Source: Lunularia cruciata
Taxonomy: Eukaryota > Streptophyta > Marchantiopsida > Lunulariales > Lunulariaceae
Reading direction: 5' to 3'
Assembly: GCA_948567375.1 (NCBI GenBank)
Contig: OX419761.1
Span: 35,812,243-35,876,242, forward strand
Length of the DNA: 64,000 bases
A model generated the notes under the pieces. That model had not been told where the DNA came from and made no database searches. It worked only from the letters and a program-made list of their open reading frames with translations. The position numbers were made by a program, and so were the translations under genes. Positions 37,346-58,100 of the stretch are shown one piece after another; position 1 is the stretch's first letter, and each line of letters starts with the position of its first letter.

Positions 37346-37796
37346 TGTCACGCCATTTGTAGTTCCGCATCTAGATGCTCGGACACTGGAGTTCTAGTGA
37401 TGGTAGTTAGAGTTATTCTAGCAGTTTCTCAGGGACTACTTTCGGACGGTTAGATTTTGTGTTCAGGGTACTGACTTCACGGTGGGGCCCACCGTCACTT
37501 TGCACCGTTTGCACCGTCGAGTGTGCCGTCAGCGAGACCGTTAGGGTTTCAGGGCTAGCTCAAGTCCAAGGGGTATAGTTTCGAAGTGAGCTCTAGAGAG
37601 CTCACTTCTCTGATGTTGAGCCTTCGAGTTCCTGGCTATGGTGGACAGAGGCCGGCGAGCGTCACCTGGATTCTCTATGCTTGAGTGGGTGTGGCTTGAC
37701 TGTAATCAGTGCCTAGTTGTTGGCAGTTTATAGAGTGACAGATCAAGTACTGATCTGAGTTGAGTTGAGTTGAAAGAGTTAAGCAATCTGATTACA
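37346..37796 (+). repeat. 5' LTR of element B (lacks the first ~124 bp of the LTR)
   Basis: Starts TGTCACGCCATTTG and ends about CTGATTACA. It matches 54,533-54,987 at about 97%. The segment that precedes this sequence in the 3' LTR (54,409-54,532, starting TGTGGCACTTTAG right after a polypurine tract) is absent here and instead appears after the 3' LTR. Confidence 0.8.
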
Positions 37797-39127: not shown

Positions 39128-40795
39128 GTGGTCACGACGGAGTTCTTTGGAGATTCCAGAGGAGTTAGCCCTGTAGTACGCAATGGGTTTACTCGGAGTG
39201 GTGCTCGGTATCAGCCTGTATCTCAGGTCCCAATGAGGGAGGAGATTGACTCTGAGTTGGAGTTTGACACAAGAGCTGATTCAGTTGAGAGTGCACTTGG
39301 TGTGTTCGCACCGTTGTTGTGGGACATGGACAAGATTTATGGGGCCTCCAAAGGCCCTAGGCGTTACTCTGGTACAATGGGTACCATTGAGTTGGATGAC
39401 TTCATCGAAGAGTTTGATAGTTGGTGTGATCTGCAGTAGATGCGGAACCCGACTTTGTTCACACCCTTCATGGCATGGAAGGGGTTGTTCCAGCATCTGG
39501 AGGGTCCGTCGATGGATGACTACCATGAGTTCAGGGGAGCTCATTTGGAGGAGATTGAGTTATGGAGACAGTATTGGTCTCCACATTATGTCTCCATCAC
39601 TTCAAGCTCGGTGGCCAGGAGTAGATCAGTTGTACCCACGAGTTCTAGCTCGAGTAGTGTTGGTGGAGCTAGTGGAGGTGCACTTGTTGGAGATAGTGTT
39701 ACTACGAGTGGAGGTACCGCTGCAGGAGGTGGTGTGGTACCGGGGTTTAACCCCATGGTGGAGTTCTTCATGTGTTTGAGGCAGAACTACCAGGGAGTGC
39801 GGACTGACAAGCTGAGGAGCTTGCAGGAGTTCCAGCGGAAGGCTGGAGAGAGCCTACGCGAGGCATATACTCGCATGAGGCGGCTGATCAGTTTCACTCA
39901 GGGAGTTACTGAGGCCCAGGCCGTCCAGTTTTGGTATGGGATACTGGACAGGGAGTTGCGACGTAGAGTTTGTGATGCTACGTTGTTGCAGGCTACTTCG
40001 CCCACTTTGGCAGTAGTCTTTGGTTTGGCTGAGCGTATTGAGCTCAACATGGTGGAGGAGAGAGTGGTGACAGCTGGATTTGGTAGAGAGACCTCATCCA
40101 CGGTTGTGACTTCTTCTAGAGTGCAGCAGAGTGCACCACGCCTAGTTGGTTTTTGAGGACAGGGTGGACAGCCCAAATCCTATGGAGCAAGTGGAGGGCC
40201 TAGTGGAGTTAGACCCTTACCCTCATTTTTGGGTCAGCAGCAGCCAGTGAGTGGTGGTGTTGCTTGTTGGACTTGTGGTGGACCTCACCATAGGAGAGAG
40301 TGTACTCAAGGCAGCGGACTTGATACCTCTGGTGCATCACAGCCAGCACAGAGGCAGTGTGAGCACTGCCACAGATTTGGTCACACTAGTGACCGGTGTT
40401 TTGACCTACACCCAGAGTTACGGAGTGGTAGGGCTGCTATGGCAGGTAGTAGAGGAGCTCCAGTTCATGGAGGACGAGGTGGTAGAGGTGGTGGTAGAGG
40501 ATCTACACCTAGTAGGGGTGCAGTACCTGCCCTTACTTCTGACACAGCTATGGCTACTCGGATTGAGCAGTTGGAGCAGAGATTGGCTAGTATGGCTATT
40601 GCTCAGAGGAGATCAGATTCGGGTGCTGAGGCTTCCACCTCATATGCTGGTGATAGAGATGCTTTGGACTTCATGTGTGGAGCAGCACAGGTGGATGCAT
40701 CTGCAGCAGTGACTAGGAGTGCATTACGTGCTCCAGAGCCTAGAGGAGCATCAGTGGAGTTGGACCCACAGAGAGGAGAGGTTGGGAGACAGGTC
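39128..40795 (+). mobile_element. gag region of element B
   Basis: Encodes a retrotransposon gag-type helical domain (FQRKAGESLREAYTRMRRLI at about 39,832-39,890; ERIELNMVEERVV at about 40,033-40,070) and, further on, zinc knuckles: CWTCGGPHHRREC (about 40,264-40,302) and a canonical CEHCHRFGHTSDRC (about 40,357-40,398). A glycine- and arginine-rich run follows (about 40,455-40,510). The gag would coat the RNA in virus-like particles. The family-A element sits directly behind this part. Broken copy. Confidence 0.8.
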
Positions 40796-41474
40796 TGTAA
40801 CACCCATTTGTGCATGTGTGTGGTATTGTGATATTTAGCTTAGTATTACAAGTACTTAAGAGATATTATTTATATAGAGATAAAGGATGGTTCTATATTA
40901 GTCATGGTTAGCTAAAGTTAGTCATAGCTAAGATAGATGGGACCTTACTTTAGAGGAAGTAGAAAAGATGAACACCACTATTTTGGATTTTAGTGTGTTG
41001 ACTTGGTATTATTCCTAGGTGTTTGGCTTTGGGGAAAGAGTTGAGAACTCTTGGGCCCGCAAGCCTTTTTGTTTTGGATTCTTCTTTAGTCCAAGGATAG
41101 CCCATGTGAAGGAATCCTTGCTTTAGTGGTTGGGTCAAGATAAGGGGAATATGCCCATGTGAATGGATATTCCTTTCTACTTTTTAACTTTACTTGACTT
41201 TTAGTCTAGTAACTTGAGTTACTACGGTAAATAGTAACTTTGGTACGTAACTATTTCACAAGTATATAAACAAGGGGTGAGGAGGTACTCATCATCCTTT
41301 CATTTGCAACTATCTCTCTCTCATTGAGTCCTCTAGTGAGCAATGTCTTGAGTCTTGGAGTGTTAGCCTTGGAGGAGTATGATGGAGTTGGGGTTCCTTG
41401 CCTTCTTAGTCCATGGTGCGCTACCATAATAGCCATCAGAGGTTCATCCTGAGTGAGAGACAGGCCGGCTCACA
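40796..41474 (+). repeat. 5' LTR of the young family-A element
   Basis: 679 bp, TGTAACACCC to GGCTCACA, with TGT/ACA inverted ends. It carries a TATATAAA box at 41,263-41,270. Confidence 0.95.
41263..41270 (+). promoter_or_regulatory. TATA box in the family-A LTR
   Basis: TATATAAA about 205 bp before the LTR end, followed by an AC-rich then CT-rich stretch where transcription probably starts. The same box is in the other family-A LTRs. Inferred from sequence only. Confidence 0.6.
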
Positions 41475-41478
41475 TTTT

Positions 41479-41495
41479 TGGTTCCGTTGCCGGGA
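41479..41495 (+). other. Primer-binding site of the family-A element (tRNA-Asp type)
   Basis: TGGTTCCGTTGCCGGGA, starting five bases after the LTR, differs at two positions from TGGCGCCGTTGCCGGGG, the complement of plant tRNA-Asp used by Athila-like elements. The minus-strand copy has the same site at 1,014-1,030. Confidence 0.7.
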
Positions 41496-42310
41496 CCTCT
41501 TTAGAAGGCAAGATAATGTTCCGCGTCCAATTCTACATTAGGCAGAAGGAGGCTATGAGAGCTCACTTGGAGAGAACATTAGGAGAGGAGAGGGCTGAAC
41601 TTATGTTAGAGAACCAAGATCCATTTGTATACCCTGTAGTTCATAATGATGTCTTTGAGGTGATTTTGTACATCTTGTACACATGAGAGGAATTGGAGAG
41701 ATTGTGTGAGGTGGATTGCAGATTTTGGGGATTAAGGTGATTTTGGGCAAAATCTCAAGTTTGAGATCTGGACTTGAGATTTCTACACATGATAGCTTGG
41801 GTTATCTTTCAGTTAGCACACTTGAAATTATTGAGAGAGCTTCTATGCGCACTGGGCTAGAATTTTTTTAAGTTGATAGGATAAAGTGCTCCCGCAACTG
41901 CATGCTCTCTGGAAAATTGTACAGAGTCTGCCATTTCTTCAATTTTCAGTGAATTGTCCTGAAAATTTCCAAGAAAATTCAGTGCATTGTATCCTACCTG
42001 GTGCCACAAAAATTAGAGAGAGATCATTTTTGCGCAGTGCGTTATGAGTTTTTGAAGTGAGGGGGGTGGTTTTCAGACCAAATCTGAAATATGGGTGCTG
42101 AATAGAAAGGTGTCTAGGCCAAATGGCTCGATGAAAAGATCTAAAATTTTGCAGGGAGGGACGCCCTAGAGTTGTGATCAAGTGTGGAAAATTTCAGAGG
42201 ACTGTGACATATTAGTTGGGAGATTTGAGTGACATTGTGAGGAAGGGTCAATTCTGTAGAGTGGAGATCTCATGCATGAGAAGTTTAAGATCAACAAAAA
42301 GCATGTTTGA

Positions 42311-42808
42311 GTGTTTAGATTCATCTTTGGGAACATGGAGGGTCATCAAGAGTGGAAATTGAGATTATGCAAGGTTCCCCAAGGGTTTGAGGTGATTGTA
42401 GGGGTGGATTTGAGAAAAAGAGAGTTTACAATAGAATTTGAAGAGAGTGTTGAGAGGATCCAAAAACCTACACCACTTGGAGGAAAGAGTGAGTCTAAGT
42501 GCTTTCTATGTGGAGAGAAGGGACATAAGGCAAGTTCATGTCCATTAACCTTTGAGAGAAAGAGATTGAGGGAAAGGAGAGGCTTACTTGACTTGGGTTT
42601 GCATGTTGGACCTTCTTCACCAAGATTGGGAGGGAGAAGATCTAAGACCAAGGAGTTGTGTGAGGTTTGTGGAGTTGAAGGACTTCCAAAAGGACATGAG
42701 TGTAGTGGAGTAAAAGCACTTTTGGAAACTTTGGTGAAGGATCTTGGAGAGAGTCTTAGTACAGCTACAGAAATACTACCACCTTCATCAGCTAGTTCTC
42801 AAGATTAG
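42311..42808 (+). CDS. Leader ORF of the family-A element, zinc-knuckle protein (165 aa)
   Basis: An open frame upstream of gag-pol. Residues 64-77 form a perfect CCHC knuckle (CFLCGEKGHKASSC, C-x2-C-x4-H-x4-C). A second cysteine pair with a histidine and cysteine follows at residues 117-131 (CEVCGVEGLPKGHEC). The N-terminal 50 residues are a mixed helix/strand stretch without a known family; the C-terminus is serine-rich. gag has its own knuckle, so this is an additional nucleic-acid-binding protein, or the relic of a captured gene. The ATG is the first in the frame; an upstream start is not excluded. Function unknown. Confidence 0.65.
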   Translation: MFRFIFGNMEGHQEWKLRLCKVPQGFEVIVGVDLRKREFTIEFEESVERIQKPTPLGGKSESKCFLCGEKGHKASSCPLTFERKRLRERRGLLDLGLHVGPSSPRLGGRRSKTKELCEVCGVEGLPKGHECSGVKALLETLVKDLGESLSTATEILPPSSASSQD

Positions 42809-43045
42809 TGATGGAGATAATCTTTCAATTTATGGATAAACTATCCATGAGAGTTAGATTAATATGCACTCTAGGATTTGATGTTGCTATAGAAATCTTG
42901 GAGCAACCTGAACCTTTTGTGTTCCCTAGAGTGGATTATTCTCAGATGGTGTTAGTCATGTATATACTCTATTAGTAATAGAGTGAGAGAAAAGAAAAGA
43001 GAAAAAAATAAAATTGAGAGGAAAGATAGATAGTGAGGGGTTAAG

Positions 43046-46000
43046 ATGGGGAAACTTCCGGTTTTCTTTGGCAAGGATGGAGAAGATGTGGAGGCCTTTG
43101 TGAGAGACTTCAAGAGAGCTTGCATAGGAAACAATGAGAGGAGGAAGAATGAGTGGGCCTCGTTATTACCAGATTTCTTTGAGGATGCAGCACTTACATG
43201 GTATGAGTCAGAATACCAAAAGAGAGAGAGGAGAGAGGGGGAAGAGGAGTCTTGGGAGACTTTGACTTCAGCACTCATTGAGAAATTTCTTCCTGATGAG
43301 AGTTATGAGAGATTGATGAGTGAGGTTACATTTCTCAAGCAAGGAGATGGAGAGAAAGTGAGGGTCTATGTGGAAAGAGTGGAAAAGTTGGAGTCCAGAT
43401 TTCGCATAGTGTTGAGGAAGGGTGGGGATGATGTGGAGACTACAATGATTGGCATAGGGGCTATGCTCACCAAGAATTTTGTGGGAGGATTGAGACCACA
43501 AATTAGAAGCAAGGTGAGATATGAGAAACCTTCTTCCAAGGTTGAAGCTATCAAGATCGCAATTCGTATGGAGGAGAGTTTGGAAGGGGATGAGAGTGAT
43601 TTGGTGGTGAAGGAGGTTGTGCATCCTCCTCAAGGCTACAAGTATGGTGGAACTTCTGATACTTTGGTGACAAGGGTTGCACCACAAGTAGTAGTTGCTC
43701 CAGTTCTTGCACCTCCACCAAAAGATCCACTCCAAACCATCACAGAACAACTTGCGGATCTCAAGATCAATGTGGTGCAACTATGGGAGAAGAGAGAGGT
43801 GGATCAGAATGTAGGGAGAGGGCCTAGGAGTTATGGAAACTATCCATATAGAGGAGGCCAACCAGCCAACAATTTCAATGATAGAAATTGTTTTGGTTGT
43901 GGAGGAAGAGGCCATATCCAAAGGAATTGCCCAAATTCCACTTACCATGGAGGAAGGGGTTATGAGGGAGCCAATAGAGGGAAAGAGGGAGGTAGTGAAA
44001 CCCAAGTGGCTCCTAATCCCAACAAAGGTAAGGGGATAGCATCCATAGATGTGGTTGAGAGCAAGTATGAGAAGGGAGAGTGCTCAAACTCCAAGGGTCC
44101 TAATTTGGAGCTTTTGGCACAAGAGAAGAAGAGAGCTCGTTTTGCAGAGGATGTTCACTCTTCTCAAGGATTTACTTCAAGCAAGGATACTCCTATGTCT
44201 ACTAGGAGCACTCGCACCTCAGCACCATCAACAACAAAGACTCCAAGGAAGAAGTTGGGGATGGAGGACTTCTTGATCTCAAAGCAACAATGGAACTACA
44301 ATGTGTTGGAGGATGTTGGTAGTCACAAGGCTAACATCACAGTGGGCCAATTAATTGCTTTGAACCCTACCTTGAGAAAGGAGCTTAGAGGTGGTTTGAG
44401 TTCTACAAGGAGCAAGAAGAAGAAGAAGGCAAAAGTTCCAGTATCAATGGGGGTGGTGGATGCCAAGCCAGCACCATGGGAGGCTTGTGAATATGCCTCC
44501 AAGATTGATGTGAGAGTGAATGGTCACAACATCAAGGATGCATTGGTTGATGGAGGATCAGCAGTGAATGCCATGTCAGAAAGGTTGATGAAGAAGTTGG
44601 GTATGATACCCTCAAGACCTTCAACATTTGTGGTGAGCATGGCAAACAAGCAACAAGTTCGACCAGTAGGAGTGATGGATAAGGTGGTAGTTTCAGTTAT
44701 GGGAGTCCAAAATCTCATGACTTTCCAAGTCTTGAAGGATTCAAGCTATGACTTACTTCTTGGGAGGCCATGGTTGAGAGCAGCACGCACAACTGATCGA
44801 TGGCACAAAGGGTACTTAAGGATTGGGCCATCAAACCATAGAGTCACTGTTCCTGTGACTAACACCACCAACACTTCACATTCAGATACCCCATCTTCTG
44901 ATTATTGGGAATCAGATTCTGAAGGAGGAGCTTCAGGTGTGGACACAAGCATGGAAGAGGAGACTTCCACGGAGGAGGATGAATCTGAATCTGATTCAGA
45001 TGTGTATCCTTTATGTGCTATGGATTTTGCACCTAAGCTAGAGGTTTTGAAGGACCCAGATAAATCACCATTGACACTTGAGGAGGTAGAGAGAAGGTTA
45101 TCTACCCTCAAGTATGGCCCAAATGTTACCAAGGAGGAGAAGGTGAGATTTGAGGAGATTTTCCGCAAGTTCATCCATGTGTTTGCTTTTAGTTACAAGG
45201 ATTTGAAGGAAGTCACCTTGGAGGAGCACAAGATAGAGGTGGAGTCACATGCAAGACCAATCCGCCAAAAGCAACGTCGCATTAGCCCACCAATATCTTT
45301 GGTTGTGAAGGAGGAGATTGATAAGCTCAAGGAGGCTGGATTTATCTTTGAGGTGGAGAATTCAGAATGGGTGTCTCCAATTGTCATTGTGAAGAAAAAG
45401 AATGGCAAGCTTCGGGTATGTGTGGATTACAAGAAGCTCAATGCTGTTACAAAGAAGGACTACTACCCATTGCCATTCATTGATGAGATCTTGGAGGAGG
45501 TTGCAGGTCATGAGAGGTACAGTTTTGGAGATGGTTATAGTGGATATAACCAAATCAAGATTGCACCAGAGCATCAACAACTCACCACATTCACCACACC
45601 TTGGGGAACTTACGCTTTCAAGGTCATGCCTTTTGGGCTTTGCAATGCTCCAGCCACATTCCAACGGTTCATGAACAAGGTATTTGAACCTTTCATTGGG
45701 AAATTTGTGAGAGATTTCATTGATGACTTTTGTGTCTATGGGAGCAAGGAGGAGCACTTTGAGCACCTAATCAAAGTCTTGCAACGCTTGGATGAGGCAA
45801 ATGCATCACTCAACCCAAAGAAGTGCATTTTTGGATGTGAAGAAGGTCTACTTTTGGGGCACATCATCTCCAAGGATGGAATAGCAGTTGATCCTAAGAA
45901 GGTGAGGAAAATCTCAGACCTTCCATTCCCTTCAAGCTTGACAAAGTTACGCCAATTCTTGGGAATGGTTGGGTACTACAGGAGGTTCATCTTCTCATTT

Positions 46001-47872
46001 TCCAACAAGGCTTATGCATTGACCATCTACATGAAGAAGGGTGTAGATTACATGGTGATTTTGGAAGACAAGGAGGCTCTCAAAGCTTTTGAGGAGCTCA
46101 AGCAATCCCTTGTTGTAGCTCCAATTCTTGCTAAACCTGATTGGAGTAAGCCTTTCATCCTCTACACTGATGCTTCTAATGTAGCTATAGGATGCACTCT
46201 TAGTCAATTAGACCAAGATGGGCATGATCATCCAATAGCTTATGCTAGTAGGCAGATGGTTTCAGCAGAGAAGAACTACTCTGTCACAGAGAGAGAAGGG
46301 TTGGCAGTGATCTTTGGTCTCAAGAAGTTTAGACACTACTTGATTGGAGGGAAAGCCACAATTGTCACGGATCACAAGGCTTTGAAGTACATCTTCAACA
46401 AGCCTAATGTTGAAGGGAGACTAGCAAGGTGGATGATACTCTTGTCTGAGTATGACTACACAATTGAGGATAGGCCAGGAAAGAAACATGCAAATGCTGA
46501 TTTGTTATCTAGAGCCTATGATCATGATGGAGATGAGCCAGTAGATGATTCCTTCCCGGATGAGGAGCTCATGACAATCTCAGTCACTCAAGAGATTCCA
46601 ATGGAGTACAAGGAGATTGTGGATTTTGTGACAAGAGGTAACTATCCAGAAGGGATGCATGCTAGGGAGAGGAAGGCCCTTGCAGCAAGATCTAGACCTT
46701 ACACAATGGTGGAGGATATTCTTTTTCACCAAGGAGCAGATGGTCTACTTCGAAGAGCAGTGGGTAAGGAAGAGTCTATCCTACTCATAAAGGAGTTTCA
46801 TGAAGGTTTAGTATGTGGAGGACACTTTGCAGGAAAGGTGACTGCTTTCAAGATTCTAGATGCAGGTTACCATTGGAGAGGGATTTTCAAGGATTGTCTT
46901 GATTATTGCAAAACTTGTCATGTTTGTCAAGCTTTTGCTAGAAAGTCTACATCCACTCCACCACTTAGATCAATTCCATTGCTAGGACCTTTTGAGAAGT
47001 GGGGAATTGATTTTGTGGGACCTCTCAATAGAACCCCAAGGAACAATCGGTACATTGTGGTAGTTACTGATTACCTTACCAAGTGGGTTGAGGCTAGACC
47101 ATTGAGGGACAAGAATGAAGATGAAGTGGGTAGATTTCTTTATGAACGCATTATCACTAGGTTTGGATGCCCTTTGGAGTTGGTTTCTGATAGAGGAGGA
47201 GAGTTTACAGGAAGCATTACTACAGCCATGCTACGACATTTCTCTATCACACATAGAGTAACTACATCCTATAAGCCAAATTCCAATGGCTTGGCAGAGA
47301 GAACCAATCAAACCTTGTGCATGATGTTGGCCAAAGATGCAGAAATGGAGGGGGCTAAACATCATTGGGACAAGAGGATTCATGCAGTTTTGTGGGAGTA
47401 TAGGACAACCATGAAGACTTCCACTGGATATTCTCCATTCCAATTGGTGTATGGTATTGAGTCTACCTTACCTATTCACTTTGATCTTCCTACCTTCCAA
47501 AGCATTCATAGGAGATTGAAGAAAGCACAAGGAAGTGATGCAGAGAAGTCAAGGAAGGATCAACTCATGGAGTTGGAAGAGGCAAGAGCAGTTGCTATGG
47601 TTCGAGTGGAGCAAGCCCAAAGGAAACAAAAGGAGAGCTATGACAAGAGGCAAGGCAAGAAGAAGGTGGAGCCTTTCAAAGAAGGTGATTGGGTAATGTT
47701 GTTTGATTCCATTCGATTCAAGAGAGTGCAAAAGAAGTTTTTGCCTAAGTACTTTGGACCTTTCATAGTAGAGAAGGTGTGGGGAAATTACACTTATGAT
47801 CTCAAGGAGTTGGGAGGAAGACACTTTGATAGGATTAACCATGATAAGTTGAAGATGTACCATAGAAGGTAG
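43046..47872 (+). CDS. gag-pol polyprotein of the family-A element (1,608 aa)
   Basis: One uninterrupted frame. In order: gag helical domain (about residues 5-180, with AALTWYESEY and FLPDESYERL), zinc knuckle CFGCGGRGHIQRNC (residues 282-295), a basic serine-rich spacer, aspartic protease with LVDGGSAVNAM (Asp 502), RT with VCVDYKKLNA and FIDD (891-894), RNase H with YTDASNVAIG (Asp 1042), integrase zinc site (His 1252, His 1260, Cys 1291, Cys 1294), catalytic core with DFVGP (Asp 1322), SDRGGEF and LAERTNQ, ending about 30 residues after a GPFIVEKVWGNYTYDLKELG segment. No chromodomain. The protease centre reads DGG rather than the common DSG or DTG, a variant seen in some plant gypsy elements. 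gag and pol are in one frame, so their ratio must be set some other way. Confidence 0.95.
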   Translation: MGKLPVFFGKDGEDVEAFVRDFKRACIGNNERRKNEWASLLPDFFEDAALTWYESEYQKRERREGEEESWETLTSALIEKFLPDESYERLMSEVTFLKQGDGEKVRVYVERVEKLESRFRIVLRKGGDDVETTMIGIGAMLTKNFVGGLRPQIRSKVRYEKPSSKVEAIKIAIRMEESLEGDESDLVVKEVVHPPQGYKYGGTSDTLVTRVAPQVVVAPVLAPPPKDPLQTITEQLADLKINVVQLWEKREVDQNVGRGPRSYGNYPYRGGQPANNFNDRNCFGCGGRGHIQRNCPNSTYHGGRGYEGANRGKEGGSETQVAPNPNKGKGIASIDVVESKYEKGECSNSKGPNLELLAQEKKRARFAEDVHSSQGFTSSKDTPMSTRSTRTSAPSTTKTPRKKLGMEDFLISKQQWNYNVLEDVGSHKANITVGQLIALNPTLRKELRGGLSSTRSKKKKKAKVPVSMGVVDAKPAPWEACEYASKIDVRVNGHNIKDALVDGGSAVNAMSERLMKKLGMIPSRPSTFVVSMANKQQVRPVGVMDKVVVSVMGVQNLMTFQVLKDSSYDLLLGRPWLRAARTTDRWHKGYLRIGPSNHRVTVPVTNTTNTSHSDTPSSDYWESDSEGGASGVDTSMEEETSTEEDESESDSDVYPLCAMDFAPKLEVLKDPDKSPLTLEEVERRLSTLKYGPNVTKEEKVRFEEIFRKFIHVFAFSYKDLKEVTLEEHKIEVESHARPIRQKQRRISPPISLVVKEEIDKLKEAGFIFEVENSEWVSPIVIVKKKNGKLRVCVDYKKLNAVTKKDYYPLPFIDEILEEVAGHERYSFGDGYSGYNQIKIAPEHQQLTTFTTPWGTYAFKVMPFGLCNAPATFQRFMNKVFEPFIGKFVRDFIDDFCVYGSKEEHFEHLIKVLQRLDEANASLNPKKCIFGCEEGLLLGHIISKDGIAVDPKKVRKISDLPFPSSLTKLRQFLGMVGYYRRFIFSFSNKAYALTIYMKKGVDYMVILEDKEALKAFEELKQSLVVAPILAKPDWSKPFILYTDASNVAIGCTLSQLDQDGHDHPIAYASRQMVSAEKNYSVTEREGLAVIFGLKKFRHYLIGGKATIVTDHKALKYIFNKPNVEGRLARWMILLSEYDYTIEDRPGKKHANADLLSRAYDHDGDEPVDDSFPDEELMTISVTQEIPMEYKEIVDFVTRGNYPEGMHARERKALAARSRPYTMVEDILFHQGADGLLRRAVGKEESILLIKEFHEGLVCGGHFAGKVTAFKILDAGYHWRGIFKDCLDYCKTCHVCQAFARKSTSTPPLRSIPLLGPFEKWGIDFVGPLNRTPRNNRYIVVVTDYLTKWVEARPLRDKNEDEVGRFLYERIITRFGCPLELVSDRGGEFTGSITTAMLRHFSITHRVTTSYKPNSNGLAERTNQTLCMMLAKDAEMEGAKHHWDKRIHAVLWEYRTTMKTSTGYSPFQLVYGIESTLPIHFDLPTFQSIHRRLKKAQGSDAEKSRKDQLMELEEARAVAMVRVEQAQRKQKESYDKRQGKKKVEPFKEGDWVMLFDSIRFKRVQKKFLPKYFGPFIVEKVWGNYTYDLKELGGRHFDRINHDKLKMYHRR

Positions 47873-47904
47873 AGAGACCTTCACTTTGAGGACAAAGTGA
47901 AAAC

Positions 47905-47920
47905 TTAGTCCGGGGGTAAA
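47905..47920 (+). other. Polypurine tract region of the family-A element
   Basis: TAGTCCGGGGGTAAA directly before the 3' LTR; the GGGGGTAAA part would prime plus-strand DNA. The same sequence precedes the LTR at 4,123. Confidence 0.65.
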
Positions 47921-48599
47921 TGTAACACCCATTTGTGCATGTGTGTGGTATTGTGATATTTAGCTTAGTATTACAAGTACTTAAGAGATATTATTTATAT
48001 AGAGATAAAGGATGGTTCTATATTAGTCATGGTTAGCTAAAGTTAGTCATAGCTAAGATAGATGGGACCTTACTTTAGAGGAAGTAGAAAAGATGAACAC
48101 CACTATTTTGGATTTTAGTGTGTTGACTTGGTATTATTCCTAGGTGTTTGGCTTTGGGGAAAGAGTTGAGAACTCTTGGGCCCGCAAGCCTTTTTGTTTT
48201 GGATTCTTCTTTAGTCCAAGGATAGCCCATGTGAAGGAATCCTTGCTTTAGTGGTTGGGTCAAGATAAGGGGAATATGCCCATGTGAATGGATATTCCTT
48301 TCTACTTTTTGACTTTACTTGACTTTTAGTCTAGTAACTTGAGTTACTACGGTAAATAGTAACTTTGGTACGTAACTATTTCACAAGTATATAAACAAGG
48401 GGTGAGGAGGTACTCATCATCCTTTCATTTGCAACTATCTCTCTCTCATTGATTCCTCTAGTGAGCAATGTCTTGAGTCTTGGAGTGTTAGCCTTGGAGG
48501 AGTATGATGGAGTTGGGGTTCCTTGCCTTCTTAGTCCATGGTGCGCTACCATAATAGCCATCAGAGGTTCATCCTGAGTGAGAGACAGGCCGGCTCACA
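47921..48599 (+). repeat. 3' LTR of the young family-A element
   Basis: 679 bp, the same length as the 5' LTR and differing from it at about two positions over the whole length. Confidence 0.95.
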
Positions 48600-49290
48600 G
48601 GTCAGACTTCCCTAGTCTTTCATGCTATCTGAGGCATTACAGACGACATCCATGGTTCCTAGACGTCCCAGTGCAGGTGTGGTAGGTGGTGATGGAGTAC
48701 CTGATGAACTACCTACTAGTCAGCCACCTGCTACTACACAGACTGAGTCTAGCATGATGTTGGGGGCGGCTCAGCTGATTATGCGGCATCCTTTATTTTC
48801 AGCCAGTGACATGTTTACATTGGGAGTTGACCCAGCCCCAGTGTTCCGGTTGGCTGCCACGTTGTGTGAGAGTAGGGATGGTGCAGTTCCTACTACTAGA
48901 GCAGAGGTGGTTGGTAGTGGAGCTGACTTGGTTGAGGAGCATGGGATCCATTCAGCGACCAGTGGTTTATGGCAGGCAGCAGTGGCTAGACTGGAGGAAT
49001 TGCCAGCTAGACCGGCCTTTGAGAGAGCGCGGTCTACACCTGGTGTTGTCCTATTGGATAACCAAAGGGGGATCTTTTGTTTGGTGGGACCTTTAGGGAA
49101 GGTCTATACACCACAGAGAGTCTTGTTAGACTCTGGTGCGCAGCCCCTTATGTTGGGGAAGGCTGCAATTGTTGGTCTGGAGTTACGGAAGATCGATGTA
49201 AAGAGGTGTCCATTTCAGATCCAGACATCTCTTGGTGGTGGTTCGACACAGTACATCACACGTGGAGAGCTTGTTGTCTAGGTTCAGCCT
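48600..49290 (+). mobile_element. Protease region of element B
   Basis: Resumes element B right of the family-A insertion. The aspartic-protease active-site motif VLLDSGAQPLMLG lies at about 49,117-49,155, followed by a GLELRKIDVK segment; this enzyme would cut the polyprotein. It is flanked by gag to the left (before the insertion) and the methyltransferase to the right, so the protease is where gypsy order predicts it. Confidence 0.75.
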
Positions 49291-49839
49291 GGTCATCCGA
49301 CTGATAGCTTGGTGGTGAGAGCTCAGGCTATTGCGACGATAGCTGAGTCATATGATGTGCTAGTTGGAGGAGCAGTGTTATACCCTATGGGTTTCAGCAT
49401 TGACTATTGGGAGGAGACAGCCTCTTATAGACCTGGTTGGCAGTCTAGTGAGGGACGGGTATGTCGCCTACCAGTACGCTTCAGTAGTGGCAGTCTTGGC
49501 TCACTACAGTCCGGGACCATGGCAGCATCAGTTTTAGCTTTCAGCGGTGCAGTTACTTGGCTTGGTGACTTGTTGGAGAGGAACGCCCATGCAGAGGATA
49601 CTCCGGTACCAGAGGAGATCACTCGGCTATGGAGTACGAGTGGGATTGTTCCATCCACCTTGGATGTTCCATTGTGGAGTTTAGAGGAGGCATTGCAGCA
49701 GCATGTAGATCAGTTGGTGCAGCAGGCTTGGAGTGGAGCCTTCGTACCATCAAGGGATGAGTGTGAGGATGAGCCTCCAGAGGCGATTGCTTTGACACCT
49801 TTGGATACCACACTCATTGCTTGGCAGTACCCAGTAGAG

Positions 49840-50790
49840 GGGATATGCTTATTGGAGTTGTTTGGTGGGATCAGCACCGGACTAGCTGCGGTGTTACAGG
49901 CGGGTATCCGAGTACAGAGGTACTTGTATGTAGAGAGAGATGAGACTGCTAGGCGAGTCTCTCTACATCATGTGGCACACTTGGCCTATCGGTATCCGGA
50001 GTTATTATCGATGTCAGCAGTCAGAGGTTACCAGAAGGCCTTACCAGGAAACATTTCCTTACTGGGAGCGCATGACCTAGAGAGACATGGACCTATTCAC
50101 TTGGTGATTTCTGGATGGCCATGGCAGGGACATACACGTGCGGGCCGCGGTTTGGGTCTTTAGGATCCTCATTCTGGTGTGTTTTGGGAGATGTTACGGA
50201 TACTACGACATCTCCAGGTTCATCAGTCTGTTTCTCCAACTTACCTTTTGGAGAACGTTCCTTTGATGGGTGATTCTCGCACTAGAGTGGTGGCGAGTAC
50301 ACATCAGGTCTATTCTTGGATGGGACCTGCTGTATTGTTAGATGCAGCCAGAGTGGGATCACGGGCTCATCGTCTTTGCCTTTGGTGGACAAACCTTTTA
50401 CCCAGAGAGGTTCTACAGCGTAGTTATGATGGGATTCAGCGACTAGACCACATTCTTGTTGATGATATCTTGGATGTTGGGCGTCAGTCTCAAACAATGG
50501 TAGTGGCTAATAGGTCACCCATGGCAGTGGTGAACCTAGTTGGACAGCCTAGAGCTGCATTTCCCACACTCATGAGTTTCCCAGGCTCTCATGCTTTTCG
50601 AGAGGGAGGACCTGGACTTGTTTGGGACTCACAGTTATAGCAGTTGGTGGAGCCCAATGCTGATGAGAGAGAGCGGGCGATGGGTTTTCACACCGGTATT
50701 ACCGCTATTCCAGCAGTGTTAGAGGCATCCAGGCGTTAGGTGTTAGGTCAGGCTATGGACCTGAACTGTTTGACCTGGATTGTGAGCCTT
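49840..50790 (+). mobile_element. C5 cytosine DNA methyltransferase domain of element B
   Basis: Conserved C5-MTase blocks in order: motif I, LLELFGGISTG (about 49,849-49,881), the S-adenosylmethionine loop; a motif II-like acidic YVERDE (about 49,927-49,944); motif IV region, HLVISGWP with a following RAGRGLGL (about 50,098-50,160); motif VI, LLENVP (about 50,245-50,265); motif VIII-like SRAHRLCLWW (about 50,357-50,390); motifs IX/X, DERERAMGFHTGIT (about 50,661-50,703) and VLGQAMDLN (about 50,740-50,766). Motif order is linear, and the short target-recognition region resembles Dnmt3-like enzymes more than Dnmt1. The domain is of normal length (about 315 residues) but this copy is broken. 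It would methylate cytosine in DNA; whether it acts on the element's own copies or host sites is unknown. Confidence 0.85.
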
Positions 50791-50877
50791 GGTTTGGCAG
50801 AGCAGCGTAGGATGCGCTTGATAGGCATCACCACTCGGACACTTGTGAGCCCTGTGCCTATCAAGACGATTCAGGCA

Positions 50878-51010
50878 CATGCTGGGGGCGATGGACCGAG
50901 TGGACATGGTATTCTTGGGACACATCCAGTAGCTACTAGGGAGAGTGGTCTACTTGGAGTCCATCCAGGTGAGCGTGGGCTACTTGGATTACACCCTTGG
51001 TCCACATGGG
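50878..51010 (+). mobile_element. Repeat-bearing linker between methyltransferase and RT of element B
   Basis: A glycine- and histidine-rich linker in which the pattern G-(I/L)-L-G-x-H-P occurs three times (GILGTHP, GLLGVHP, GLLGLHP) at about 50,911-50,996. No known domain. It may be a flexible spacer between the fused methyltransferase and pol. Confidence 0.6.
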
Positions 51011-51179
51011 ATGCAGCCAGAGGACGTGTGGAGCTTGCAGCCAGAGTGGAGGGAGTTTTTCACATAGAGGTTGGGACCTCTAGTGATCGGGAGCATGACA
51101 CTATTGTTCCCAAGGGCCCAGTGTAGCAGCCAGTCAGTACGTCTTCCACTCCTACTACAGTTACAGAGGATACCTGGGA

Positions 51180-52610
51180 GCCAGATCTTGGACCCAAGCT
51201 TACTGGAGAGGAAAGATGGAGGGTTTGGAGGTTCTTGAGGAGTCACACGAGTTGTTTTGCCTTCAGTATGAAGGATTTGGGTGCTCTGAAGGGACCTAGT
51301 ATACGGATTGAGCTGACTAGCGACACACCTGTTTTCCGACGTCCTTATCGATATAGTGATATGGAGAGGACATTGATTCAGAGCCGGAGTAGTGACCTTT
51401 TTGAGGCTGGTTTGGTGGAGATTTCACATGGAGAGTATGCATCAGCGACAATGATGCCAGCCAAGAAGGATATGCATGGCAACTATACAGATAGGCGGAT
51501 GTGTGGAGATTATCGTCCTATCAACCGACAGACCAGGGCTGATCGGTATGCCATGCCTACACCGGAGGAGATTTTTGATGCGATTGGGCATGCAAAGGTC
51601 TTCAGTACTTTGGATCTTTGAGCGGGATATCATCAGTTGCCGATCAGGGAGGAAGATAAGTCCAAGACAGCATTTTGGGCTATTGATCCTCACGGCAAGG
51701 ATGTGTTATATTAGTGGAGGTTCTTACCATTTGGGTTGAAGAACGCTCCTGCTGAGTTCCAAAGGGTCATGGATAGGATCCTAGCTGGATTGGATTTTGC
51801 TTGGTGTTATATTGATGACATTTTGGTCTATAGCACTACTGTGGAGGAGCATGAGAGATAGCTGTTGGAGGTGTTTAAGAGGTTGAGATCTCATGGACTC
51901 AAACTACATCTTGGGAAGTGTAGGTTCTTCCACGAGCAAGTTGAGTATTTGGGTCACACTATCTACCCCGGAGGACTTGGTGTTCAGCAGACCAAGGTGG
52001 AGGCTATTGCACGTATTCCTCGGCCTACGGATGTGAGCAGAGTGCGAGCATTCCTTGGGTTGGCGAACTTCCATCGCCGCTATGTTAGAGGATTTAGTGC
52101 CATTGCCAAGGCCTTGACAAAGCTGACCAAGCTTACACAGGAGTGGTGTTGGGGAGATGAGCAGGAGAGAGCTTTTGTAGAGCTCAAGGAGAGGTTGACA
52201 TCTACTCCTATTTTGAGGAGACCGATCAGGGGACGACCATTTCAGGTTCACACTGATTGGAGTATGTTGGGGCTTGGAGCGGTGCTCACCCAACATGATG
52301 ATGAGGAGAAGGAGTTTGTGGTGGCCTATGCTAGTTGCTCTAACAATTCAGCAGAGACAAAGTATAGTTCATATGAGGGAGAGTGCTTGGCAGCAGTTTG
52401 GGCAGTAGCACATTTCTGATGTTACCTATTTGGTAACCCCTTCACTCTCATCATTGATCATCAGCCGCTGAAGTGGTTGATGGAGTCTGACAAGCTTTCA
52501 GGGAAGCTTGCACGATGGGCTATGATTTTACAGGAGTATGATTTCACGGTTGTTCACAGACCTGGAGTGGTGAACCGTGATGCAGATGGGTTGAGTAGAA
52601 ACCTATGTCC
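51180..52610 (+). mobile_element. RT and RNase H of element B
   Basis: RT blocks: RRMCGDYRPINRQT (about 51,495-51,537), HAKVFSTLDL (about 51,590-51,621), [17 protein letters not shown] (about 51,723-51,773), [10 protein letters not shown] (about 51,805-51,835). The connection follows with FLGLANFHRRYVRGFS (about 52,052-52,099). RNase H: VHTDWSMLGLGAVL (about 52,246-52,287), an SSYEGECLAAVWA block (about 52,366-52,405) and a RPGVVNRDADGLSR tail (about 52,558-52,600). Together they copy element RNA into DNA. Phylogenetic grouping within gypsy cannot be set by eye. Confidence 0.85.
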
Positions 52611-52979
52611 CAGCCAGCAGGATCAGACCGGAGCACATTGGCATGGTGAGACAGATGAGGAGATGGTGCCAGGTTGGCATGCATCGGCCTTTCTGTGTAT
52701 ATTTGCAGAGACTTTGGTGGTATCTCTCTCAGCGCATACAGGAGGAGTTATTGAGGTCACAGATCCAAAGAGTGAAGATATTGGTACAGTTCAGCGAGAC
52801 ATTCATGATGATGTCTTAGTGATGGACTATCTTTGCATTGGTGTTGTGGGTGGCACAATTGGGGCCAAAGAGAGAGATCGTGTTCTTCAGCAAGCCAGAC
52901 GGTTCAGATTGGAGGGTAGACACCTTTTGCGTGTATGGGAGGATGGTAGAGTGTGAGTAGTACCACTTCCATCACAGAG

Positions 52980-53870
52980 ACCACAGTTGGTCCGTCATGC
53001 TCATGAGGAGCTAGGACATTTTGGAGTAAAGCGTACATATAGCTTACTCCAGAGTCATTATTGGTGGCGCGGTATGCAGACCGAGGTACAGCAGTTTGTT
53101 GCCAGATGCGTGGTTTGTGACCGAGTTAGAGCATCATTCAATGCTCCTATGCCACAGTTACACCCATTACCTATCATGGGATTGGGTTACCGTTGGAGTT
53201 TGGACTTCACCGGACCTTTACCGCTGACTGTGAGACATCATCGGTATGTTTGGTGATGGTGGAGCACTTCTCCAAGTGGATTGAGTTGGTGGCACTTCGT
53301 GACAAGTCTAATGAAGGGACAGCTTACTCGTTCCTGGATCGAGTTCTTAGTCATTTTGGTGCACCAGCTGAGGTTTTGACTGATCAAGGTATAGAGTTCT
53401 TGGGAGAGTTTCAGGTCTTGTGTGATAAGGCTTTGATTGATCATCGTACTACATCCCAAGATCACCTTGAGGCAGATGGCTTAGCAGAGAGAGTGGTTCA
53501 GACGGTGAAGAGAGGATTGCAAAAGTATGGTTTGCAGAGAGGCCACTTGGGAGATTGGGATCTCCAGTTACCTTGGTTGGCCATGGGCTATCGGTTCAGC
53601 CGGCAAGCCTCCTTAGCATCCTTCTCTCCATACTTTCTACTCTATGGACGAGATCCAAATTTACCTGCAGCCATTCGTCGAGATGCTACTATAGTTTTGG
53701 ACTTGGATGACCCTGATGTATGGATGAGCGCATGTTCTCAGCGGGCAGAGATCTTTCGGAGAGTGATGCCGATGGCCTTTGAGAACTTGGCGATTGCTCA
53801 GCATAGAGATACTTTACGCTATGCTACCATTCGAGGAGGAGGTTATAGACCCTCGATCCATTGATTTCAT
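52980..53870 (+). mobile_element. Integrase of element B
   Basis: Zinc-binding N-terminus with histidines in RHAHEELGHFG and cysteines in ARCVVCDRV (about 52,993-53,125), then the catalytic core: SLDFTGPLP (about 53,199-53,225), LTDQGIEFLG (about 53,374-53,405) and DHLEADGLAERVVQ (about 53,461-53,503), supplying the D, D and E positions. A C-terminal stretch (HLGDYVYLQQ, then ending NCAPCHLPNIDG) leads into the PHD finger. It would insert the DNA copy into chromosomes. Confidence 0.83.
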
Positions 53871-54098: not shown

Positions 54099-54233
54099 TG
54101 TATGTTATGTGGCTCTTCTGGTGGAGCTGCTACTATGTTAGTGTGTGATAGCTGTTCGAGAGGATGGCATATGGCATGTATGACTCCTCCCCTCACGGTG
54201 GTTCCTCAGGGACAGTGGTTATGTCCTAGATGT
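54099..54233 (+). mobile_element. PHD finger at the C-terminus of element B pol
   Basis: Spacing C-x2-C-x11-C-x2-C-x4-H-x2-C-x14-C-x2-C, the canonical C4HC3 of a PHD zinc finger, with the typical WH-MAC centre and the aromatic WLCPRC end. Many gypsy elements carry a chromodomain at this place; here a different histone-tail reader sits behind integrase. PHD fingers commonly bind the H3 N-terminus; which mark this one would prefer cannot be read off. It lies just before the end of the coding region at about 54,239. Confidence 0.9.
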
Positions 54234-54396
54234 ACTTGACCTATAGCTAGTTCATTCTTTATATGGTATAGATTGCAGACAGGCGACTAACGATGGGGCT
54301 CCATAGCACCCGGCCTCCTGATCTTTGCCCATTAGAGGGTATACCATATACTTAGAGTAGATGGCTATCTGGAGTTAGAGGGACCTAACCGCCAGC

Positions 54397-54408
54397 TAGG
54401 GGGGCGAT
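54397..54408 (+). other. Polypurine tract of element B
   Basis: AGGGGGGCGA immediately before the TGTGGCAC start of LTR sequence, the place where plus-strand DNA synthesis is primed. It sets the true LTR start at 54,409 rather than at 54,533. Confidence 0.65.
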
Positions 54409-54987
54409 TGTGGCACTTTAGAGTCTATGTATGACTTATGTGTGAGTTGTGCTTCTATAGTGTATGATGTTGACAGCGATGTATGTTGTGTAGCGATGTA
54501 TGTTGTGTAGCGATGTATATACGCACGACAGTTGTCACGCCATTTGTAGTTCCACATCTGGATGCTCGGACATTGGAGTTCCAGTGATGGTAGTTAGAGT
54601 TATTCTAACAGTTTCTCAGGGACTACTTTCCGACGGTTAGATTTCGTGTTCAGGGTACTGACTTCACGGTGGGGCCCACCGTCACTTTGCACCGTTTGCA
54701 CCATCGAGTGTGCCGTCAGCAGGACCGTTAGGGTTTCAGGGCTAGCTCGAGTCCAGAGGGTATAGTTTTGAAGTGAGCTCTAGAGAGCTCACTTCTCTGA
54801 TGTTGAGCCTTCGAGTTCCTGGCTATGGTGGACAGAGGCCGGCGAGCGTCACCTGGATTCTCTATGCTTGAGTGGGTGTGGCTTGACTGTAATCAGTGCC
54901 TAGTTGTTGGCAGTTTATAGAGTGACAGATCAAGTACTGATCTGAGTTGAGTTGAGTTGAGTTGAAAGAGTTAAGCAATATAATTAT
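54409..54987 (+). repeat. 3' LTR of element B (full form)
   Basis: Begins TGTGGCACTTTAGAG right after the polypurine tract and continues through TGTCACGCC (54,533) to about AATATAATTAT (54,987). The last ~455 bp match the 5' LTR at 37,346-37,796. A 17-bp word (GCGATGTATGTTGTGTA) is repeated near 54,477-54,512. Confidence 0.7.
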
Positions 54988-55106
54988 TGTGGCACTTTAG
55001 AGTCTATGTATGACTTATGTGTGAGTTGTGCTTCTATAGTGTATGATGTTTACAGCGATATATATGGGGCGATGTATGTTGTGTAGCAATGTATATATGC
55101 ACAACA
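54988..55106 (+). repeat. Extra copy of the first ~120 bp of the element B LTR
   Basis: TGTGGCACTTTAGAG to GCACAACA, a diverged second copy of 54,409-54,532, placed directly after the 3' LTR. It is exactly the part that the 5' LTR lacks. GTAC follows, as GTAC also precedes the 5' LTR, but the first two of those bases could be LTR sequence. Confidence 0.75.
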
Positions 55107-58100
55107 GTACATTGTTTTACCTTATGACTAAATCAGAGAAGGTTGTAAAATATAATAGATGTGTATTGAGCACCGAACATGCCAAAGTGGTTGATCTTCA
55201 AGCATGTTCGTATACTTGCTTAAAGTGCTTCGTACACTCTTTACGGCAGCTGCTGGCTGAGTGAGCACATGTCAAAACTTTAGAAATCGTTACTTTGATA
55301 CTTTAAGGACGATAACTCATACGGTAAATTTCATTGATCAGAAATTTGCCAAAGAGTACGCATGTTCTAAAGTCACATGGGCGCCAATGTATGATGTATA
55401 ATGAACGAGTGAGCTTGAGCTTGAGCTGACGGCGATATACCTTGAGCTTGAGTCAAGGTAAGATTAACCCCTGCAACATATTTAATTCACCTGTAAGCTT
55501 TAACGTTACCAGGTGCTCCAAGACATTTAAGTTTGACGACAACAAATAGAGGCAGATAAGAATGTTTTAGATGTGATTCTTGTTTCTCAATTGTCATGGA
55601 GGTGAAAATTCTCAACTATGAGATCCAGACAGCGGCATACCGTCCTGGGAAAGGATTTCACAATTCCTCACATTCAGTATATTTAATTTGAGAAAAGGAG
55701 GCTGATGGTATCGATACGTTAATGGACCCACACACTTTTGGATCTTTCCCTGCGGAAGTGGTGGTCAAGCATGACCACTACTTCAGGAAAAAAACAGTGA
55801 ACGGTACATACTATTGAGTTGCATTTTACGCATAGTACAGAGATGGAAACCGTGAGTTGTTAACGTTCTAAATGTTGGGAACACATGAGTACCTTCAGCG
55901 AAACACAGTCTTCACGATTATGCAAGCCGCTGGTATCATACAAACGTGTGCCAGTACAGCATCTTGGCAAATTGATGCTGCCCAAAAGTTTCCGAAGCGC
56001 TTGGTATCAAAATTCTCGATTACTGATCGGCTTTACTAAAGAGAGGTTTTCTCAGGCGAGATGCTCAATACATAGGTATAGAGTATGCCCGAGATTGCGA
56101 AAAGTGTAAGCGACTCAGAGTGTTTGCCACATTCTCCTATAATTGTCGACTGTCATCCACATAACTTTTGCAGATTTCATTATCGCGCGAGCGCGTCAGC
56201 TTGATCCTTCAAGGTTCAGGTCGTAGTTTCCAGATAGATAGCGTGTCTCCCTTCAGCAACATCAGTTCTTTGGTCACTAGATGATGTCGTCTCGTGTTTA
56301 TCTCAGGTATAAGTGTGCAGAAATTCTGGCTAGCGGGTCTGAATGTCGCAAAGTTGATAACCGTTAGTTGATCAAAGTCTACTGTACGCTTTAACTATAC
56401 ATACAAACCTGAAGTCTCGGAAGAATATGTACTAGCTTCCCTGAGAGGTCATTCTGACCTACAAACCTTTCCCTCAAGACATTATAAGAGTTTTCCAAAA
56501 GTATCTGGTCAACATTGACGATATGATCCAGTGGTGTACGGCTTGCGTCACAACACCATGAACAACGAGAACCTGAATTCATCCATTCGATCCTTCTATT
56601 TTCAAACACAAGCATATAGAGTAAACACGCAGACATGTAGCATCGCAGACGCAACCAACGAATACCGCAACCGTACCACCTTCCACATATTGTCAACTAT
56701 CTACTGGGTAGGTTATACTGAAAGATAATCTTTTTCCCGGTGATTCCCGAGTTTGTTGAACTCGAAACCCGAATTCAACGTCCGATTAGACAAGCAGATT
56801 GACCTTTCCTGCATGCAGCAGTACTCACAGGCAGACAGAAAGCAAAGATGGTTTACTTTTGATTGTTACTTTTGATTGTTGTAGTGTACCAAAGATGTAC
56901 TTGAACTGATTTTGAGGACTCCCTTACCTGTTTGTTGCGAAAGAAGTCAATTTTCAGCATGTCCCTACCTGGAAGTGAAGAAAGGATCAACTGGGAGAAT
57001 ATTAAATTTTTTAGTCGGGGTGTTTTCATTCCTGTGCTGCTGAAAAGACCTACTAAACCAGGTCCACTTTCTGGACTATACGGTCGACGACATAAAACTT
57101 GATGTGTGTTGATTGAATCTGAGTACGCGTATGCCAACCACTGGCTGCAACGCTTTTCTCTGTGCTTGACACAATGGCGAGGAACGAAGATATTTTTATG
57201 GCATCTCTTGATTCATAATTCGCTTTGGGACGAGGACCGTGTTATGCTTCGTTGTAAGATAAAACCCAGAGCTCGTTCACGAATTATCACATCAGATTAA
57301 GCGCGATGCTTCAACAACAGAGAAAATATCCGTTATCTTGAGTACATGGCGACGATACAGTTGGCAAACTTTGTCGTCGAAATGCATGAACATGTACACA
57401 ACATACGCAGTTGCAGCATCAACTTGCTGTCTGCTTGATAAATGGTGAGAAAAGAGAACACAAGGACAACCTTCTCAAGGTGGAGTGATACAAGGAAGAA
57501 AATGACAGATTCGTTCAGGGTCGGTCACACCGCATGACACCACATGTTGGCGTTGGGTATGATAGTTGTACCAAAGGCTTTGTGGATGCGTAAGTAAGCC
57601 AACGACAGATACGGCAGTAAGGTGCAAGAACGCTCTCATTTAAACAACTGTTTTGGCGCACGCACCTCCTTAGGCCCGGCAAGCATTCAGTAAAACAGCA
57701 GGCCCTTGCGACTGACTTGCTGCAATTATGCAAGCTCGTGTCTTTCGTGACTGCTTGGTCTACCCAGACTGCAGTTCGTTTAGGGACAAAACACCCAAGT
57801 TTTGGCTTAACGCTCAAGTGTCCGACGTACATTATAATACTGTAGAGGAAAACATCAGACTCTTTTCTGCGTGACACTAGACTGTCTTCTTACTACGTGA
57901 CGATACGAGCACACCACCGTGTATTTTTTTTGTCAAGTTTAGCCGCACCTATGTAAAATACCGGCAGCCTAGCTTGCAGGACTCCACCCTGGGTTCTTGT
58001 AAATGACATGCAATGTGCATATTTACTCCGAATACTTGTTGAAAGTAAATCTCTAGCAAACCGGCTGTCTCAATCCTTCGATAGCGTACCAATGACCTGA

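Follow-up and report, generated by a model that had tools for sequence, protein, structure and literature searches.

A DNMT3-type methyltransferase domain in a split-repeat, Ty3/Gypsy-type retrotransposon family of the liverwort Lunularia cruciata

The window analysed here is a 64,000-nt stretch of the Lunularia cruciata genome (C11:35812243-35876242; assembly GCA_948567375.1, contig OX419761.1), and it contains a retrotransposon, element B (37346-55106; ~9.95 kb once a nested insertion is subtracted), that carries a C5 DNA methyltransferase (MTase) domain. Judged by its domains, its repeats and its relatives in the genome that we searched (565.8 Mb in 74 contigs), element B belongs to a large and recently active family of Ty3/Gypsy type and has itself decayed. 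We hold with moderate confidence to a reading in which Gag, protease and a DNMT3-type MTase share a first open reading frame (ORF1), a probably leaky UAG follows, ORF2 encodes reverse transcriptase (RT), RNase H, a DDE integrase and a PHD finger, and the element methylates its own cDNA and integrates from joined ends. The parts of this reading that we infer are readthrough, self-methylation of the cDNA and integration from joined ends.

The methyltransferase domain and its place in the family

A sequence-only reading of this stretch had proposed a Gypsy element with a full-length run of C5-MTase motifs between protease and RT. Six segments corresponding to motifs I, IV, VI, VIII, IX and X do lie at that place, collinear and in a single frame (+1):

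49849-49881, plus strand: motif I, LLELFGGISTG
50110-50145, plus strand: motif IV, SGWPWQ
50242-50262, plus strand: motif VI, YLLENVP
50356-50394, plus strand: motif VIII, GSRAHRLCLWWTN
50659-50688, plus strand: motif IX, ADERERAMGF
50740-50778, plus strand: motif X, VLGQAMDLNCLTW

While the run of motifs is complete, a working enzyme is not what it spells: motif IV of the window copy reads WPWQ instead of WPCQ, replacing the catalytic Cys with Trp, and three stops (50161, 50638 and 50737) interrupt the domain, so that the window copy is to all appearances dead. Because the domain has decayed, the window copy taken alone (stops read as X) falls below the Pfam cut-off for PF00145 (E = 0.0028; 17.6 bits against a cut-off of 22); its open pieces, searched separately in Pfam, gave no MTase match, and an NCBIfam search with it gave a weak dcm match only. 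In a phmmer search of the window domain against PDB the best match was DNMT3A (2e-7), and a profile built from 12 relatives matched DNMT3A at 5.9e-23, DRM at 4e-12, HhaI at 7e-9 and DNMT2 at 5e-7; protein relatives matched the MTase at up to E = 1.8e-165 and 70% identity. With DNMT3 the closest match and the motif order linear, the domain is, on sequence grounds, DNMT3-type. A DRM identity was rejected, the motif order being linear rather than rearranged and the profile E value weaker, and so was a bacterial-type MTase, given the gap between the HhaI and DNMT3A values.

The profile check that failed for the window copy succeeded across the genome. Scoring the best 123 of 2161 candidate places against PF00145 gave at least 123 places, all of those scored being above the cut-off; four are host genes and most others match the motif IV part. 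By our reading of the frames, the host genes are DNMT3 in L001 (with a second in L004), DRM in L002 and a CMT/DNMT1-type exon in L003; host DNMT3 lies in separate frames and is apparently multi-exon, and host DRM is rearranged. The 24 non-host places that were read (L005-L028) are all copies of element B's family. With a 227-aa MTase query, the best 150 of 11195 candidates were scored and each was at least 96% identical, and an element-specific junction (CGACANNTGTCACGCCATTTG) occurs 796 times genome-wide, its reversed control not at all. Among copies fetched by their MTase, the order Gag, zinc knuckle (NC), protease (PR), MTase, RT, RNase H (RH), integrase (IN), PHD is kept in 20 of 20, L018 being without Gag in the stretch examined.

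A sample chosen regardless of the MTase, namely 20 junctions on contig C1 taken at about every fifth one listed (one such pick was copy L022, and its neighbour was taken instead), has the MTase in place in 16; three copies keep only the domain end at that offset and one has none. Fifteen of the 16 in-place domains cover at least 369 residues and the last, in L081, reaches 334 of 374 residues because the stretch examined ends within it; four (L063, L064, L073 and L078) read in two frames. The four junction copies lacking a full domain would fit decay rather than an MTase-free family. The catalytic Cys occurs in 24 of 24 profile-found copies, a count inflated because the search profile favours motif IV and corrected by the junction sample, where it was seen in 13 of 16 domains. 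A Gypsy element carrying a C5-MTase, as first proposed, is thus borne out by domains and by the fixed place of the MTase between protease and RT. The two copies of repeat A within an element (A1 and A2, below) have a median identity of 97.7% (16 copies, range 88.8-99.8), which suggests recent insertions.

Pairwise ratios of nonsynonymous to synonymous substitution (dN/dS) among stop-free copies had medians of 0.25 for gag (n = 10), 0.51 for protease (n = 18) and 0.54 for the first RT piece (n = 15), and the MTase stood at 0.40 (0.44 pooled; eight stop-free copies). We then took variants common to at least three copies as marking transmitting lineages. Nonsynonymous:synonymous counts were 13:24 for shared versus 103:52 for rarer variants in the MTase (p = 7e-4) and 2:11 versus 69:37 in gag (p = 8e-4), both still significant after Bonferroni correction for the eight tests made, and 2:5 versus 30:11 in the PHD part (p = 0.03). 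The shared-variant test shows a selection signal on the MTase domain at the level of sequence variants; copies L009-L028 were chosen mostly for long open frames, which affects this test and the dN/dS values alike.

Although the MTase lies between protease and RT as proposed, its reading unit is that of Gag and protease, ORF1, rather than that of RT. ORF1 ends at 51124, downstream of the MTase and just upstream of the RT part, in a conserved, in-frame TAG. All 20 other copies keep this TAG and have CAG after it, in 19 as part of CARYYA, and a far relative (L061) has TAG CAATCA, likewise CARYYA, at the equivalent site. UAG-CARYYA is the signal reported for type I readthrough in tobamoviruses, among others (PMC5382211). 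The TAG is probably leaky, and readthrough of it is predicted from this context. ORF1 (Gag-PR-MTase) has 1428 codons in two fully open copies and ORF2 (RT-RH-IN-PHD) has 1037 where open. As the frames read, the Gag polyprotein in this genome has the MTase as its final domain, and the place of the MTase before a readthrough-type stop makes production at Gag level probable. Among 33 long ORFs of other sources with the MTase and without later domains, some of whose ends may reflect contig ends or gene models, 30 end 66-177 residues past the MTase and three end 10, 15 and 24 residues past it; other relatives (e.g. P0178 and P0185) continue into RT in one frame.

Relatives numbered 192 proteins in one search (the best 120 examined by name) and 57 and 35 in two others. 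Source names among them include Calypogeia fissa, Marchantia polymorpha, Riccia sorocarpa and three Sphagnum species, together with the green algae Cymbomonas tetramitiformis and Monoraphidium neglectum; most rows are unnamed, and no Klebsormidium name was among the matches listed (120 of 192, 57 and 35). The named relatives are mostly liverworts and mosses, the nearest of them liverworts, in keeping with the land-plant setting that had been suggested from the letters. Nearly the whole genome lies in six contigs of 64.5 to 84.9 Mb and two more of at least 58.5 and 60.0 Mb, as would suit a small number of large chromosomes. The catalytic Cys is invariant in alignments extending to the green alga Cymbomonas, and a PHD finger occurs in 18 of the 28 relatives with an integrase match. 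The MTase takes one of two positions, before RT (order I, 15 proteins) or between RNase H and integrase (order II, 23 proteins); the range P0160-P0193 holds many polyproteins of the latter kind, and P0162 has a weak G-patch match, below cut-off.

In MTase trees, which hold three outside sequences only, the retroelement rows split from host DNMT3, human DNMT3A and host DRM with support of 100/100 and 100/99. The two domain orders cluster in these trees, and an RT-RNase H tree separates them at 100/100. In the first MTase tree order I is one clade and order II is not, and in the larger tree the reverse holds. A single MTase capture with one later move would fit the trees. The nested, MTase-free Gypsy of the window falls among order I rows in one RT tree (86/89, on a long branch) and outside them in another; its place among order I rows weakens the case for a single origin of the RT lineage that carries the MTase. 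The far relative L061 (CADCWO010000201.1, 1-9285) is a contig labelled as a cyanobacterial metagenome-assembled genome (MAG) that encodes a eukaryote-type Gypsy-DNMT3 element, its MTase 52% identical to that of L013 over 312 residues. We take it as a eukaryotic contaminant of the MAG. The contig closes on itself with 127 nt, which may represent a real circle or an assembly-graph collapse. A viral contig scan gave 16 loci, with matches 27-53% identical to parts of the MTase domain.

Split repeats and the ends of element B

Element B is Ty3/Gypsy-type by its domains (Pfam matches RT_RNaseH and rve in the window), and the order protease, RT, RNase H, integrase with an rve/DDE core recurs in 20 of 20 copies. 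It does not have identical long terminal repeats (LTRs) at both ends, and the assignment is made by domains, not by repeats. Its features in the window are as follows:

37342..37345, no strand: left target-site duplication (TSD) GTAC, same as 55107-55110
37346..37794, plus strand: repeat A1, element 5' end, begins TGTCACG; 95.4% identity to 54533-54986
39440..40795, plus strand: Gag and zinc-knuckle part of ORF1; PF03732 Retrotrans_gag, E = 0.0042, weak, below cut-off
40796..48599, plus strand: nested Gypsy; LTRs 40796-41474 and 47921-48599, ORF 43037-47872, TSD GGTC
48616..49278, plus strand: protease part of ORF1, DSG at 49123-49143; 89-94% identity in other copies
49738..50859, plus strand: DNMT3-type C5 DNA MTase, order I-IV-VI-VIII-IX-X; apparently dead in the window copy
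51124..51132, plus strand: probable leaky stop TAG CAGCCA between ORF1 and ORF2; kept in other copies
51127..52953, plus strand: RT and RNase H part of ORF2, YIDD at 51808-51828, stops present; PF17919 1.4e-27, PF17917 4.6e-17
53130..53861, plus strand: DDE integrase core; PF00665 rve 5.9e-10
54099..54236, plus strand: PHD finger, ORF2 C-terminus; PF00628 9e-12
54398..54404, plus strand: polypurine tract AGGGGGG, directly 5' of B1; read from sequence
54407..54530, plus strand: repeat B1, terminates CGACA; 91% identity to B2, the copy 3' of A2
54531..54532, plus strand: two-base spacer GT in the palindromic B/A junction; compared across 19 junctions
54533..54986, plus strand: repeat A2, match to A1
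54987..55106, plus strand: repeat B2, element 3' end, terminates ACAACA; match to B1
55107..55110, no strand: right TSD GTAC, same as 37342..37345

The repeats follow the plan A-coding-B-A-B, with A1 on the left and B1-A2-B2 on the right. Of 21 copies (the window and 20 fetched ones), 17 were readable at both ends, and all 17 have split repeats in which A1 begins TGTCACG and B2 terminates ACA; counting left ends (17 copies plus the window), 18 of 18 begin TGTCACG. A 4-bp TSD flanks 15 of the 17, the exceptions being L011 and L025. Among the other four copies, L019 has a truncated A1 and L024 is without A1 in its stretch; L018 and L023 are considered below. The B1/A2 spacer is GC in 14, GT in three and AC in two of 19 junctions, and the GC spacer yields the palindrome GACA-GC-TGTC, the two spacer bases being missing at the outer ends. 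The A2/B2 joint has an identical position in 18 of 19 right ends. In L011 this joint holds four leader bases, CATC, resembling imprecise circle junctions. The junction extends to the far relative: the B/A junction block CACGACAGCTGTCACG is identical over 16 nt in L061, and the polypurine block GCTAGGGGG, common to the element and L061, precedes the junction by 112 nt in L013 and L061 alike. Among 500 mononucleotide shuffles none gave a shared word as long as 16 nt (maximum 15). Membership in DIRS proper was rejected, given the rve integrase, the lack of a tyrosine recombinase among the Pfam matches and the 4-bp TSD in 15 of 17 copies.

The younger Gypsy that sits inside ORF1 of element B, splitting it, has an ordinary LTR at each end (99.7% identical), a 4-bp TSD and an intact 1611-aa ORF with gag, PR, RT, RH and IN by Pfam and no MTase; its ordinary LTRs make it a useful control for reading element B's ends. 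Its CpG observed/expected ratio is 0.15, versus 0.48 in window 8000-36000, and a second relative, partly inverted, lies at 1-4818. In element B itself, the Gag part of ORF1 has a stop at 40154, the Gag/zinc-knuckle pieces are 92-98% identical to pieces in other copies, and the protease part (48616..49278) has no Pfam match of its own. Six of nine stops in the window pol frame (48616-52956), the conserved TAG 51124 excluded, are TAG, and TAG is by eye the prevailing stop in the genome match lists, an excess that C-to-T change at CAG, a context of CHG methylation, would be expected to give. Elsewhere in the window, a degenerate tandem array at 5965-7221 (unit ~149 nt, also 107 and 299) is purine-rich on the plus strand, and a 223-nt head-to-tail duplication (96% identity) lies at 36197-36648, left of element B.

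Proposed joined ends and self-methylation, and their alternatives

In the mechanism we propose, ribosomes would mostly halt at the UAG and so make the MTase at Gag level, and the MTase would be packaged in the particle to methylate the element's own new cDNA. The cDNA ends would be joined B to A via the two-base spacer, in a circle or by a DIRS-like splint; integrase would cut GACA^GC^TGTC on both strands and insert A-coding-B-A-B, the PHD finger perhaps guiding integration to chromatin. Two opposite-strand cuts at this site would free exactly the observed ends, with the two bases as overhang. For integrase to cut the B/A palindrome, the cDNA would first need its B (right) and A (left) ends joined, and the internal B1-GC-A2 could template that joint, or else a two-LTR circle could supply it. 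DDE integrases trim two bases, leaving CA ends, and for split-repeat DIRS elements the internal repeats have been proposed as the template for the end joint. In vitro, HIV-1 and foamy virus integrases are reported to cleave the two-LTR palindromes of their own viruses (PMC1905944). More tentatively, and a little short of an even chance in our estimate, the family would belong to a DDE-integrase lineage, spanning green algae to bryophytes, that has given up ordinary LTR ends, joins the B and A ends of its cDNA into a palindrome for its integrase to cut and insert as A-coding-B-A-B, and packages a captured DNMT3, produced at Gag level by way of a leaky stop, that methylates the cDNA before insertion.

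Several observations count against these proposals. Copy L018 stops exactly at B1 and L023 is rearranged on the right, the spacer is non-palindromic (GT or AC) in five of 19 junctions, and the self-closure of L061 makes its repeat plan unreadable. No TGG-type primer site directly 3' of A1 was seen by eye in the copies examined, and the mirror isomer A-B-A-coding-B, expected from cutting a two-junction circle, occurs in none of 17 copies, which would favour a directed process. Ten of the 28 integrase-bearing relatives showed no PHD finger, and at least three of the ten stop at the integrase. The MTase dN/dS is above the <0.2 reported for the algal element KnitGypsy. The shared-variant test was not significant (p = 0.2 to 1) for PR (10:9), the second RT piece (4:8) and RH (6:4), and shared variants in the first RT piece (6:1) and IN (7:3) lean the opposite way, again without significance. 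The CpG observed/expected ratio is 0.40-0.50 in 20 copies versus 0.48 in window 8000-36000, so the element shows none of the extra CpG loss that would have been a sign of self-methylation.

The joined end might also arise without a DIRS-like splint, from a linear BA-coding-BA cDNA end-joined into a two-LTR circle and opened at one B/A palindrome. We regard this as possible but doubtful. The polypurine tract directly 5' of B1 and A1 directly 5' of the leader are arranged as for a BA-type LTR, the leader bases at the L011 joint look like an imprecise joint, and such palindromes are the kind reported to be cut in vitro by the HIV-1 and foamy virus enzymes (PMC1905944), whereas the constancy of the A2/B2 joint and the missing mirror isomer speak against it, and a spacer confined to the internal junction suggests templating. 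Another proposal, which we consider unlikely, is that the MTase acts on chromatin and not on its own cDNA, so that together with the PHD finger it would mark insertion sites or tune host methylation, restraining copy number or hindering silencing. It would account for the PHD finger after the integrase in 18 of 28 relatives, for the mostly synonymous shared PHD variants and for the lack of extra CpG loss, but placement in ORF1 links the MTase to Gag rather than to the integrase-PHD unit, and some relatives keep the MTase without a PHD finger.

The domain could instead be a passive or structural passenger, such as an RNA- or DNA-binding module whose catalysis is irrelevant, and its stops or broken frames in the window copy and in several further copies, with a dN/dS that is just moderately low, would suit this. 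A Cys invariant out to Cymbomonas and shared MTase variants that are mostly synonymous make it quite improbable. That a piece of a host gene entered one copy by chance insertion, an idea whose sole point in favour is the decayed window copy, has a negligible probability and was rejected: the domain occurs in at least 150 places at 96% identity or more, many copies hold it at a fixed place, including the 16 of 20 unselected ones, and host DNMT3 is a separate, apparently multi-exon gene. The partial or missing domains in the remaining junction copies, which might have argued for such an insertion, fit decay.

Significance and closest known systems

A retrotransposon family that carries an MTase is a paradox, since retrotransposons are commonly targeted by cytosine methylation; the paradox was raised but not settled by de Mendoza 2018. 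With the family abundant here and named members in Marchantia polymorpha, a plant of the laboratory, it becomes testable. Encoding the MTase with Gag before a probably leaky stop hints at bulk supply to the particle, and split repeats with a TSD suggest that in nature an integrase of retroviral type is able to act on joined ends. The joined-end route for retroviral integration has long been disputed.

No DNMT-bearing Gypsy element of land plants was recognised in the open-licence literature, subscription papers and preprints lying outside this scope, and in the same literature split repeats in a Gypsy element appear only in a KnitGypsy figure legend (PMC5890265, as far as accessible). That element, KnitGypsy-Dnmt3 of the alga Klebsormidium nitens, is the closest report, likened here by its published description. 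It is described as a Gypsy LTR element with a Dnmt3 domain, intronless and multicopy (de Mendoza 2018, PMC5890265), and shares with element B's family the Gypsy pol domains, an unrearranged Dnmt3-type domain and an intronless, multicopy state; the A-coding-B-A-B repeats, given in the Fig. 1 legend and likened to DIRS in the Fig. 4 legend, are likewise common to both. Its domain is reported to be under purifying selection (Ka/Ks <0.2), and in the authors' view the domain was acquired independently in K. nitens (PMC5890265). The hosts differ, hundreds of junction-bearing copies of element B's family being found in a liverwort. ORF1 placement before UAG-CARYYA, the terminal PHD finger, the 4-bp TSD and the palindromic junction are features of element B that are not noted for KnitGypsy-Dnmt3 in the accessible text, and the word PHD is absent from the main text of PMC5890265. 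The same source reports de novo CG methylation by retrotransposon DNMTs and suggests self-methylation.

Other systems share single traits with element B. Host DNMT3 and DRM genes have the same catalytic motifs as the element MTase but are apparently multi-exon (DNMT3) or rearranged (DRM) and stand apart in trees. PAT-like, Ngaro and VIPER elements have the same repeat plan, with A1 at the 5' end and B1-A2-B2 at the 3' end, yet are described with a tyrosine recombinase (PMC6681497), whereas element B has an rve/DDE integrase and a 4-bp TSD. SymbioDIRS-Dnmt3 of Symbiodinium is reported to carry Dnmt3 in one ORF with RT, in two domain orders and with split repeats, as in the wider family described here, but it is a DIRS element of a dinoflagellate and uses a tyrosine recombinase (PMC5890265).
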